Shown here piece by piece: positions 326 to 4,867 of a stretch of DNA of 48,875 nucleotides. The stretch comes from Acidimicrobiia bacterium (GTDB lineage Bacteria > Actinomycetota > Acidimicrobiia > Acidimicrobiales > MedAcidi-G1). The number at the start of each line of letters is the position of its first letter. Within the stretch, counting starts at the first letter, position 1. The stretch covers positions 1 to 48,875 of the forward strand of contig DQOF01000143.1 in NCBI GenBank assembly GCA_015658775.1, in the 5' to 3' direction. Position numbers and translations under genes: made by a program. The notes below the pieces were generated by a model. That model made no database searches. It was not told the origin of the DNA and was given only the letters and a program-made list of their open reading frames with translations.

Positions 326-1189
326 CTAGGACTGGGCGTGCTGCCAGCCGAACCGGCCCTTGATACAGAGATGTCCGTGTGTGACCGAATGGTCGGCAGG
401 CGACGTCACCTTCACGATGCGGTCGTCCTGGGTGTGCAACTCCAGGTTGCAACCCACGCCGCAGAACCCACACACAGTGGTGGTCACCTCCTGTGCGCTC
501 TCGTCCCAGGTCCCCTCCTCGCGCATGTCGTGTTCGGTCTTGAACACCAGGGCGCCGGTCGGACACACGCCTATGCAGTTCCCGCAGTAGACGCACGCCG
601 AGTCGGGCAGGGTGACATCGAACTCCGTCGAGATGTGCGCATCGAAGCCCCGGCCGGCCGTGGCTATCGCATATGTGTGCTGGGCGTCGTCGCCGCACGC
701 CTCGACGCACTTGTAGCAGAGGATGCAGCGCTCGTAGTCGCGGACGTAGAGGTCGTCCTGGACCTTGACGGGCTGGGCGACGGTGGCGATCTCGTCCCGT
801 GCCCCCATCCGCTCCGGCCGGGCACCGTAGTGGTCCATCCAGTCCAGGACGTCGGCATCGGAACGGTCCATCCGGACCGACGAGGCCAGCAGTTCGAACA
901 CCATCCGTCGGCTCGTGCGGACACGCTCGGTGTCCGTACCGACGACCATGCCCTCCTCCACCGGTCGGGAGCACGACGGCACGAGTACCCGGGAGCCCTC
1001 CACCTCGACCACGCACACCCGGCACACGTTGACCGGGGTGAGGTTCTCGGCCCAGCAGAGCGTGGGCGTGTCGACGCCCTCCCGGCGACAGGCATCCAGG
1101 ATCGTGGACCCCTCGGGGACCTTCACCGCCTTCCCGTCGAGGGTGATCCCGACCAGGGGGCGGGGTGTCCCCACCGGTGTCCCGTTCAT
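326..1189 (-). CDS. Formate dehydrogenase, detached N-terminal iron-sulfur lobe of the alpha subunit
   Basis: A 287-residue electron-transfer protein matching the N-terminal third of FdsA/FdhA-type NAD-dependent formate dehydrogenases. Order of domains: a [2Fe-2S] NuoG-like domain (Cys in TLCWAEN, VCRVC, VPSC), two [4Fe-4S] ferredoxin motifs (CILCYKCVEAC and CVYCGNCIGVCP), and the four-Cys motif that opens the bis-MGD oxidoreductase fold (CGFCGVGC, then LCIKG). It stops right after GRFGW, exactly where the full-length family would continue into RLTTP. That continuation starts the separate catalytic gene at 4867. The ATG at 1189 overlaps the stop of the NuoE/NuoF-like subunit by four bases. 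It probably assembles with that subunit and the catalytic subunit in the cytoplasm and passes electrons to the FMN/NAD site. Confidence 0.88.
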   Translation of the reverse strand: MNGTPVGTPRPLVGITLDGKAVKVPEGSTILDACRREGVDTPTLCWAENLTPVNVCRVCVVEVEGSRVLVPSCSRPVEEGMVVGTDTERVRTSRRMVFELLASSVRMDRSDADVLDWMDHYGARPERMGARDEIATVAQPVKVQDDLYVRDYERCILCYKCVEACGDDAQHTYAIATAGRGFDAHISTEFDVTLPDSACVYCGNCIGVCPTGALVFKTEHDMREEGTWDESAQEVTTTVCGFCGVGCNLELHTQDDRIVKVTSPADHSVTHGHLCIKGRFGWQHAQS

Positions 1190-2976
1190 CGTGCTCCCTC
1201 CAACAGACCCAGGTCCAGGGCCGATCGAACGGCTCCGGCAGCCGTCTGGCCCAGGCCGCAGATCGAGGCGTCCCTCATCACCGCACCCAGGTCGTCGAGC
1301 AGCTCGCGTTCGTCGTCCAGGGTCGCCCCCCGCCTGAGGCGCACGAGTACCTCCTCCTGACGGACGGTGCCGACCCGACATGGCACGCACTGGCCACACG
1401 ATTCGTCGCGGAAGAACTCGGCGATGCGACGGACCGTGTCGACCATGTCATCCTCGTGGCCAAAGACCATGACCACCCCCGATCCCAGGGAGAGGCCCGC
1501 CTCGCGTGTGTCCTCGAGGGTGAGTGGCAGGTCGAGACGGTCAGGGCCGACGAACGAGCCGGCCGCTCCACCCAGCAGCACCGACCGCACCTCGGTGCCG
1601 TCGGTGACCCCGCCGGCAGCCTCGATGACACCGCCGAGGGTGATGCCGAACTCGTGCTCGTAGATGCCGGGGGCGTTGACGCGGCCGCTCACGCAGAACA
1701 GCCGGGTGCCGGACGACCGCTCGGTGCCGAGAGCGGTGTAGGCGGCCCCACCGTCGAGCATGATGGGCAGCACGTTGACCAGCGTCTCCACGTTGTTGAT
1801 GGCCGTGGGCTCACCGAACAGGCCGTGGGTGGTCGGGAACGGCGGCTTGTTGCGGGGTTCGCCGCGGTAGCCCTCGATGGAGTTGAACAGCGCCGTCTCC
1901 TCGCCGCATATGTAGGCGCCTGCACCGATGCGTAGCAGGATGTCGAACCTGGCGCCGGAACCGGCCACGTCGTCACCCAGAAACCCTGCAGAGCGGGCTG
2001 CTGCGATCGCGTTGGCGAGGCGGGCAGTGGTCACCGGGTACTCGCCGCGGATGTAGAGCCAGCCCTGCTCCGCGCCTATCGCCGTGCCCGCCACGGTCAT
2101 CGCCTCGATGAGGGAGAACGGGTCACCCTCCATGACGACACGGTCCTTGAACGTTCCCGGTTCCGACTCGTCGGCGTTGCAGACCATGTGGCGTGGACGC
2201 CCGAGCTGGTCGGCGACCGCCTGCCACTTCACGCCGGTCGGAAAGGCCGCCCCGCCGCGACCCGAGAGCCCCGAGGCCGCGACCTCCTCGATGACCCTGT
2301 CACCACCCATTGCCAACGCGGCCTCCAGAGCCCGATAGCCCCCGTGGGCCAGGTAGTCGTCGAGGCTGGTGGGATCCACGACACCGATCCGGGCCAGCAG
2401 GCAGAGGTCGGTCGAGCCCGCCTGCGGTAGGACGACAGACGCGGTGGAGGTGCCACGGTCGATGGCGACGGAGACTTCCGCAACCCCTGCCGATGTGACC
2501 GTGAGGTCGTCGCCGCCGGTGCGCTGGACCAGGACCGCCGGTCCCCGTTCACACTGGCCGAGGCAGGGACTGGGCCTGACGTGGTGGCCAGCTGCCCTGA
2601 GGTCGGCCATCAGGTCGACTGCGCCCAGGGGGCGACAGGCGATGTCGTCGCAGACGTGGACCACGTCGGCGGCCTCCGGGGGCTCGTGCGTGAACAGGTG
2701 GTAGAAGGTCGCCACGCCGTACGCCTCGGCCGGCGGCACCTCGAGAACGCGACAGGCGTGGTCCAGGCCACCGGGGCTGATCCAGCCGGCGGCCCTCTGC
2801 AGGGCGTGGAGCGCAGGCAGCAGGAGATGCCTTCGTTCGACGGCCCGGGTCCGGCCGGCGTACACGAGGCGCTCGGTCATCTCGACGATCGCCGGTCCGA
2901 CGTCGGCGACCACGGCGTCGACCGCGGCACGTTCGGCGACGGTGGGCTCAGCACCGCCGAAATGGAGGTCAGGCAT
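1186..2976 (-). CDS. NAD-dependent formate dehydrogenase, fused gamma/beta (NuoE-NuoF-like) subunit
   Basis: A 596-residue fusion. Residues about 1-160 form a NuoE/FdsG-type thioredoxin-like [2Fe-2S] domain with CDDIAC and CLGQC ligand pairs. The rest is NuoF/FdsB-like: the NADH/FMN-binding segments GRGGAAFPTG and CNADESEPGTFKDR, GAGAYICGEETAL, and the C-terminal [4Fe-4S] motif CGQCVPCR with a later Cys in SICGLGQ. It should transfer electrons from the formate site to NAD+. FdsG and FdsB are separate proteins in the well-studied Cupriavidus enzyme; fusions are known in other lineages. The ATG at 2976 overlaps the 3' end of the catalytic subunit gene by eight bases, so the two are translationally coupled. 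Confidence 0.9.
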   Translation of the reverse strand: MPDLHFGGAEPTVAERAAVDAVVADVGPAIVEMTERLVYAGRTRAVERRHLLLPALHALQRAAGWISPGGLDHACRVLEVPPAEAYGVATFYHLFTHEPPEAADVVHVCDDIACRPLGAVDLMADLRAAGHHVRPSPCLGQCERGPAVLVQRTGGDDLTVTSAGVAEVSVAIDRGTSTASVVLPQAGSTDLCLLARIGVVDPTSLDDYLAHGGYRALEAALAMGGDRVIEEVAASGLSGRGGAAFPTGVKWQAVADQLGRPRHMVCNADESEPGTFKDRVVMEGDPFSLIEAMTVAGTAIGAEQGWLYIRGEYPVTTARLANAIAAARSAGFLGDDVAGSGARFDILLRIGAGAYICGEETALFNSIEGYRGEPRNKPPFPTTHGLFGEPTAINNVETLVNVLPIMLDGGAAYTALGTERSSGTRLFCVSGRVNAPGIYEHEFGITLGGVIEAAGGVTDGTEVRSVLLGGAAGSFVGPDRLDLPLTLEDTREAGLSLGSGVVMVFGHEDDMVDTVRRIAEFFRDESCGQCVPCRVGTVRQEEVLVRLRRGATLDDERELLDDLGAVMRDASICGLGQTAAGAVRSALDLGLLEGAR

Positions 2977-4867
2977 GGACCTGCGCCGACAACTTCTGTA
3001 CCCGGATGGCGGCCGCCTTGAACTCGGACGTCCCCGACTTGGGATCCCAGGCGTCGCAGGTCAACTGGTTGACGTCTGCCTGTTCCGGGAAGTGGAAGGT
3101 GGTGAAGGCGAGGCCCACCGGCAGGTCCGGATCCACTGCCACGGTCATCTCGATCGATCCGCGCCGGGACGACACCATCACCCGCTCGCCGTGGGTGATC
3201 CCGAGTGAGTCGGCATCGGCCGCCGAGAGGTCGATGGCCTCGCCGGACCGGATCGGAGAGTTGTACTGCCCGGTCTGGACGCCCGTGTTGAAGGAATCCA
3301 GCGCCCTCCCGGTGGTGAGGCGGAGCGGGAATTCCTCGGTCAGCCCGTCGACCGGCGGCCGGTCGTCCACGCACGAGAACGGTGCCCTGCGGCCCCCTAC
3401 CGGTCGCTCCCAGAGGCGACCGTGCAGGAACGGCGTGCCAGGGTGGTCCTCGTCGGGGCAGGGCCACTGGATACCGCCCTCGGACTCGAGCCGCTCCCAG
3501 GACATGCCACCGTGCATCGGCGACAGCGACCGGAGCTCGTCCCACAGTTCCTCGGCGGACGGTCGCCCCCAGTCGGCCCCCATCCGGTCGGCCAGGTCGG
3601 CGATGATGTCGATCTCCTTGCGGGCCTGGCCCGGGGGTCTCACCGCGGCGCGGGTCCTCTGCACCCGGCGCTCGCTGGAGGTGACCGTGCCGTCCGTCTC
3701 GGCCCAGCCCAGGGCGGCGGGAAGCACCACGTCGGCCATCTGCGCCGTCCGGGTCATGAGGACGTCCTGCACGACGAGGTGGTCGAGGCGGCCGAGCATC
3801 GCCCTGGCGTGGTTGATGTCGGCTTCGGAGTCGGCCGGGTTTTCGCCGATGACCCAGACCGCCTTGAGTTCGTCGCGCTCCATGGCCTCGAACATCTCGG
3901 TGAGGTGCCAGCCCGGCCGGGCCGGGATCGTGTGCCCCCAGGCGGCCTCGAACCTGGCGCGTATCTCGTCGTCGGCCACATCCTGGAAGCCCGGTAACTT
4001 GTTGGGCAGGGCCCCCATGTCGCCACCGCCCTGCACGTTGTTCTGACCCCGTAGCGGCACCAGGCCCGATCCCCAGCGGCCGACATGTCCCGTTAGCAGG
4101 GCCAGGTTGCACAGGGACAGCACGTTGTCGACAGCCGTGTGGTGTTCGGTGATGCCGAGAGTCCACATGAGTTGTGCGGTCGGGGCGGTCGCATAGCCGT
4201 GGGCCAGGTCCCGGATCGCCTCGACGGGCACGCCGGTGACCTCGGCGGTGCGCTCCAAGGTCCAGGGCTCGACGTGGGCAGCGAAGGCGTCGAAGCCCTC
4301 TGTGGCGTGCTCGACGAACTCGTCGTCGACGAGGCCGGCGTCGATGATCTCACGTGCCACCCCGTTGGCCAGGGCGATGTCGGTGCCCACGTCGAGGCCC
4401 AACCACACGTCTGCGAACCGGGCCGACGTGGTGCGCCGTGGATCGACCACCCACATGCGGGCACCGTTGTCGACGCCCTTCAGAAGGTGGTGGAAGAAGA
4501 TCGGGTGTGCTGCACGGGCGTTGGACCCCCACAGGACGATGGCGTCGGCCTCCTCGATCTCCCGGTACGAGGAAGTTCCACCGCCTGCTCCGAAGACCGT
4601 CGCCAGACCGACGACGCTGGGCGCGTGTCAAGTTCGATTGCAGCTGTCGATGTTGTTCGAGCCGATGACCGTGCGGGCGAACTTCTGCGCGGCGTAGTTC
4701 ACCTCGTTGGTCGTCTTGGAACAACTGAACATGCCGAAGGCCGTCGGCCCATGCTCGTCGAGCACCGACCGGAACCCGGCCGCGGCCCGGTCCAGGGCCT
4801 CGTCCCATGTGGCCTCGCGCAACTCGCCGTCCCGGCGCACCATCGGCGTTGTCAGACGCTGGCTCAT
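2969..4867 (-). CDS. fdhA: Formate dehydrogenase catalytic subunit, selenocysteine at in-frame UGA (Sec80)
   Basis: Oxidises formate to CO2 on a Mo or W bis-MGD cofactor. The frame runs from ATG 4867 (GGGAG ribosome site) to 2969 with one TGA at 4630-4628. Upstream it reads NNIDSCNRT; downstream it continues HAPSVVGLATVFGAGGG, so the TGA falls exactly at the catalytic Sec/Cys position preceding the conserved His. Further family signatures follow: VVDPRR, TLGITEHH, QNNVQGGGDMG, IGENPA, a C-terminal molybdopterin-dinucleotide domain with RLTTGR, and FKAAAIRVQKL. Read through, it is 632 residues. It lacks the N-terminal iron-sulfur lobe, which is the separate gene at 326-1189. A hairpin directly after the UGA matches a bacterial SECIS. 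Ordinary tools would miscall this as two ORFs or a pseudogene. SelA, SelB, SelD and tRNA-Sec are not in the window. Confidence 0.9.
4598..4616 (-). promoter_or_regulatory. Bacterial SECIS element (selenocysteine insertion hairpin) in fdhA
   Basis: Counting the UGA as mRNA positions 1-3, positions 15-21 (CGUCGUC) pair with 27-33 (GGCGACG). This gives seven pairs including one U-G, closing a loop GGUCU at 22-26. As I recall the E. coli fdhF sequence, its SECIS loop carries the same GGUCU at the same positions from its UGA. This hairpin is what SelB would recognise. The structure was folded by hand only. Confidence 0.8.

Follow-up and report, generated by a model that had tools for sequence, protein, structure and literature searches.

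Whether a reading frame interrupted by an in-frame UGA encodes a working selenocysteine (Sec) enzyme or is a damaged gene is the question raised by fdhA of an Acidimicrobiia bacterium. The gene lies on the minus strand of contig DQOF01000143.1, of which a stretch of 48,875 nt (hereafter the window) was analysed. Translation of the window showed that the fdhA frame has 632 codons and that the TGA is its sole internal stop, which agrees with the initial annotation of a single TGA between SCNRT and HAPSV in an otherwise open frame. A simple gene finder splits the frame into 79 codons and a 495-aa remainder without the active site. To this extent the gene is hidden, as the initial annotation held, but the claim was overstated, since the literature already describes such an enzyme from another actinobacterium (PMC7176365). 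The coordinates of the features are listed in Table 1.

Table 1. Features of the fdhA locus in the window.
Feature	Coordinates	Strand	Details
fdhA, catalytic part	2969..4867	-	632 aa; Sec at residue 80, TGA read as Sec (predicted)
UGA codon predicted to be read as Sec (SCNRT-U-HAPSV)	4628..4630	-	catalytic column; TGA in homologues
SECIS-like hairpin, GGUCU loop	4598..4616	-	six inner pairs (4615-4599) conserved
Fused NuoE-NuoF-like (FdsG-FdsB) diaphorase subunit	1186..2976	-	596 aa; PF01257, PF01512, SLBB, PF10589; nuoE/nuoF models
Iron-sulphur subunit	326..1189	-	287 aa; PF13510, PF22117, PF04879

The UGA is directly established, and its counterpart in FdhF-type enzymes is the catalytic Sec/Cys column (RLCHAP and RICHGP in the alignments to solved chains). 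The same column is Cys in the split homologues L220-L223. Both alignments, the second of them proposed as a check in the initial annotation, confirmed the catalytic position assigned there. As in bacterial selenoproteins, the UGA stands in a column otherwise occupied by a redox-active Cys, and coding continues past it. A sequencing or assembly error for TGT or TGC, or a decaying pseudogene, might be suspected in a window from a fragmented draft assembly, all the more as functional Cys-type homologues exist. We consider this vanishingly improbable. TGA occupied the site in all 58 close homologues (63% identity or more, site included) found among 198 genomes of the same order (Acidimicrobiales), and in 80 of the 80 nearest homologues kept from a scan of named bacterial genomes; these come from many assemblies, several of them single-contig. 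The error for TGT or TGC that the initial annotation had allowed for is excluded by these counts. The remaining frame is intact, and the codons of the hairpin behind the UGA are exceptionally constrained. The UGA-interrupted frame is almost certainly a functional enzyme, as predicted from the sequence comparison, and not a defect.

The 80 named homologues share some genomes with the order set. They are mostly labelled Acidimicrobiales, Acidimicrobiaceae or Acidimicrobiia, and Ilumatobacter nonamiensis is among them. Phylum-wide sampling yielded 27 loci at 63% identity or more, two of them already in the other homologue sets, and all 27 have TGA. The Cys-type split relatives L220-L223 (61–63% identity) have TGT or TGC at the site and the same operon order. 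They come from four large-genome actinobacteria of one genus (g167), so that a Sec/Cys switch is seen within one family. Distant homologues L078-L081 had been flagged with one TGA and were rejected; their aligned column is TGC and the TGA lies elsewhere in the match. Relatives on plasmid records were all below 60% identity, with none closer.

The Sec machinery was found directly in the source genome (2.0 Mb, 90.5% complete, 216 contigs). A tRNA-Sec with the anticodon tca (UCA) scored 66 bits, selA (386 bits) and selB (270 bits) overlap on one contig, and selD scored 355 bits; fdhD is also present. The SelA, SelB, SelD and tRNA-Sec of a bacterial selenoprotein producer are all there. The initial annotation had concluded that the organism makes selenoproteins unless this machinery was absent; the conclusion is supported, and every check named there that was run spoke for it. 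Because the assembly consists of 216 contigs and is 90.5% complete, it is binning that ties the sel contigs to this genome. Mis-binning is unlikely because the same pattern is found in many relatives, single-contig genomes included. In the order sample, selA or tRNA-Sec was present in 57/58 genomes with fdhA versus 66/140 without it (Fisher p 8e-14). The exception is G170, which has fdhA without selA or tRNA-Sec in a genome that is 83% complete. The 66 genomes with selA or tRNA-Sec have no close fdhA with the UGA site in their assemblies, and many of them should therefore hold other selenoproteins.

Two further TGAs were noted in the source genome. The selD gene has a UGA of its own (GAG-U-GCK) at L017:1077-1079 (minus strand of the locus; G000:C60), which is conserved in relatives. 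Two of three selD copies folded into an 8-pair hairpin with a 3-base loop (CCC, CCG) approximately 7 nt behind the UGA, with a matched CUC/GAG to UUC/GAA change; unlike the fdhA hairpin, it has no GGUCU loop. The TGA within the fdhD match was considered as a further selenoprotein and rejected, as it is the ordinary FdhD stop codon.

Since the read-through product is predicted, the UGA could also be read in another way, by near-cognate decoding, tRNA-Trp suppression or a reassigned UGA, with an amino acid other than Sec. This is highly improbable. UGA is also a plain stop in the same genome, at the end of fdhA (2971-2969) and of fdhD. The complete Sec machinery co-occurs with fdhA, and the split relatives without the hairpin have Cys in the column. 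The comparative evidence indicates that fdhA is almost certainly a real selenoprotein into which Sec would be inserted at the UGA.

The hairpin and its conservation were observed directly. The 19-mer 4616-4598 (CGUCGUCGGUCUGGCGACG) folds with seven pairs around GGUCU at −9.2 kcal/mol, an energy equalled by 6 of 200 shuffles. The seven-pair stem of the initial annotation does form in this fold, but only its inner six pairs are conserved and the seventh, outer pair is not. In longer context, within 43 or 81 nt, the hairpin is not the minimum-energy fold and other folds win. Support for the hairpin therefore comes from comparison and not from folding energy. An Rfam search of the whole window and of 4540-4680 gave no match to a SECIS family. 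The window has 130 GGTCT words on both strands, and only the one in fdhA is flanked by a stem of more than three pairs (seven pairs). The spacing from the UGA to GGUCU is 18 nt in fdhA and identical in the E. coli K-12 fdhF record, in accordance with the distance given in the initial annotation.

Among 109 distinct sequences, the loop was always GGUCU, and standard pairs made up 99.7% of the cells in the six inner pairs. When the 3′ side was slid by 1 to 3 bases, 16–84% of the cells were paired, and the observed value was reached by 0/500 shuffles. Pair 4 is C-G in 95 sequences and G-C in 14, and mixed in none. This compensatory double change alters no amino acid (GTC to GTG, GCG to GCC). On a tree built from the 58 homologous proteins it must have arisen twice, and each origin is enforced by well-supported branches. 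Variation is lowest in codons 85-89, which encode the hairpin: among 154 conserved codons that have at least four synonyms, these five rank at the bottom, with a mean entropy of 0.18 bits versus 1.63 bits. Distant Sec forms (50–51% identity) keep the loop and have A-U at pair 3 where the others have G-C. In the Cys-type relatives L220-L223 the loop is GGGCU or GGACU instead of GGUCU (4/4). The element has the properties of a bacterial SECIS, namely a position just behind the UGA, a loop that starts with G, and conservation with covariation. The hairpin set and its Cys-type counterparts offer a clean natural experiment on the requirements of SelB.

What the initial annotation had missed is that the alpha subunit is split and that fdhA encodes no more than its catalytic part. 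This split is established directly. The fdhA product has a molybdopterin oxidoreductase domain (PF00384, Molybdopterin, 246 bits) and a dinucleotide-binding domain (PF01568, Molydop_binding, 83 bits) and no other Pfam domains. It has no N-terminal Fe4S4 domain, and the gene begins where that domain ends in other FdhA proteins. The TIGR01591 model matched fdhA at positions 51-672 of 672 (642 bits; curated cut-off 666 bits), and its positions 1-49 matched residues 238-286 of the third gene, so that it takes both proteins to cover the model. In the third gene, the Molybdop_Fe4S4 domain sits behind 2Fe-2S and 4Fe-4S domains. A Fe4S4 domain directly before the catalytic part is the usual arrangement. 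Because the more distant Sec relatives L224-L227 have it, the split alpha subunit is probably the derived state.

The NuoE-NuoF start overlaps the fdhA end by 8 bases, and the iron-sulphur start overlaps the NuoE-NuoF stop by 4 bases (ATGA); the three genes are therefore probably translated together. The same gene order (catalytic part, NuoEF fusion, iron-sulphur subunit) recurs in every named contig that extends 3 kb or more downstream (65 of 65). This three-gene build agrees with the FDH3 type of split actinobacterial Sec formate dehydrogenase. Upstream on the same strand (window 8170-4998) lie a gamma-butyrobetaine-hydroxylase-like TauD dioxygenase gene (6242-4998) and a 3-hydroxyacyl-CoA dehydrogenase-like gene within 8170-6239. 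This pair possibly belongs to carnitine or related catabolism and has no obvious link to formate.

The best solved relatives of fdhA by sequence are FdhF of the hydrogen-dependent CO2 reductase, other formate dehydrogenases and E. coli formate dehydrogenase H. The substrate is assigned from these similarities, and with the CO2 reductase subunit as the best match, the protein might be a real selenoprotein with another substrate or acceptor, or a CO2 reductase. The TIGR01591 score below the cut-off points the same way, although the missing 49 positions can explain the shortfall. We regard this as unlikely: throughout, the nearest matches of the catalytic part are formate dehydrogenases, its partner is a flavoprotein of the NADH-dehydrogenase type, and formate removal by the published counterpart depends on selenium (PMC7176365). 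With great confidence, we interpret the fdhA product as the Sec-containing catalytic part of a molybdenum (or tungsten) formate dehydrogenase that is cytoplasmic, of the NAD type, and has two partner subunits. The protein families and the Actinomycetospora chiangmaiensis enzyme suggest Sec insertion, assembly of the three subunits, formate as the substrate and NAD as the acceptor. The FMN- and NADH-dehydrogenase-type domains point to the NAD linkage.

Binding of SelB to the hairpin and Sec as a ligand of the metal are general knowledge of E. coli FdhF. By analogy, SelB with Sec-tRNA-Sec would bind the GGUCU hairpin behind the UGA, and Sec would be placed at residue 80 as the metal ligand. The iron-sulphur protein may provide the proximal 4Fe-4S domain that is normally fused to FdhA, and the NuoEF-like flavoprotein may hand the electrons to NAD.

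The main interest of the gene lies in its wide distribution within the order. Selenium-dependent formate oxidation appears to be common among bacteria of the Acidimicrobiales type, which are mostly uncultured and in many cases marine; their one-carbon metabolism would thereby be tied to the supply of selenium. The chances seem about even that the Sec formate dehydrogenase whose iron-sulphur domain is transposed is ancient in the order (58/198 genomes, 22 families), that selenium use is far commoner there than the literature shows, and that the SelB of these bacteria reads a stem without the bulged U of the E. coli fdhF hairpin. A literature search, with most subscription papers outside its coverage, found no paper describing a Sec formate dehydrogenase in the order. 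Its frequency in the order seems to be unreported, while the kind of enzyme itself is already known.

In E. coli FdhF, the Fe4S4 domain is in the same chain, and the enzyme is part of formate hydrogenlyase. The protein described here resembles it in the catalytic domain (1aa6, E 1e-129) and the Sec column, and the gene in the 18-nt spacing and GGUCU. Unlike the E. coli fdhF hairpin, which is folded with a bulged U, the fdhA stem has no bulge. The NAD-dependent formate dehydrogenases of the FdsABG type (6tg9, 7e5z, 7vw6) likewise have a Mo/W subunit, a 2Fe-2S/4Fe-4S region and NuoE- and NuoF-like subunits. In those enzymes the alpha chain includes the iron-sulphur region, and the match to fdhA starts at residue 308-372 of the chains; here this region is encoded by a third gene of its own, and NuoE and NuoF form one chain. 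The alpha subunit of formate dehydrogenase is the most widespread bacterial selenoprotein, found in 822 organisms (PMC5029168). The closest likeness is to FDH3 of A. chiangmaiensis DSM 45062, a cytoplasmic three-subunit Sec formate dehydrogenase from another actinobacterial lineage (PMC7176365). That strain has SelA, SelB, SelD and FdhD and removes formate in a selenium-dependent manner, and the subunits of the enzyme were detected in its proteome (PMC7176365). Its subunits of 640, 614 and 316 aa compare with 632, 596 and 287 aa here, and these lengths together with the published description suggest the same architecture (PMC7176365).
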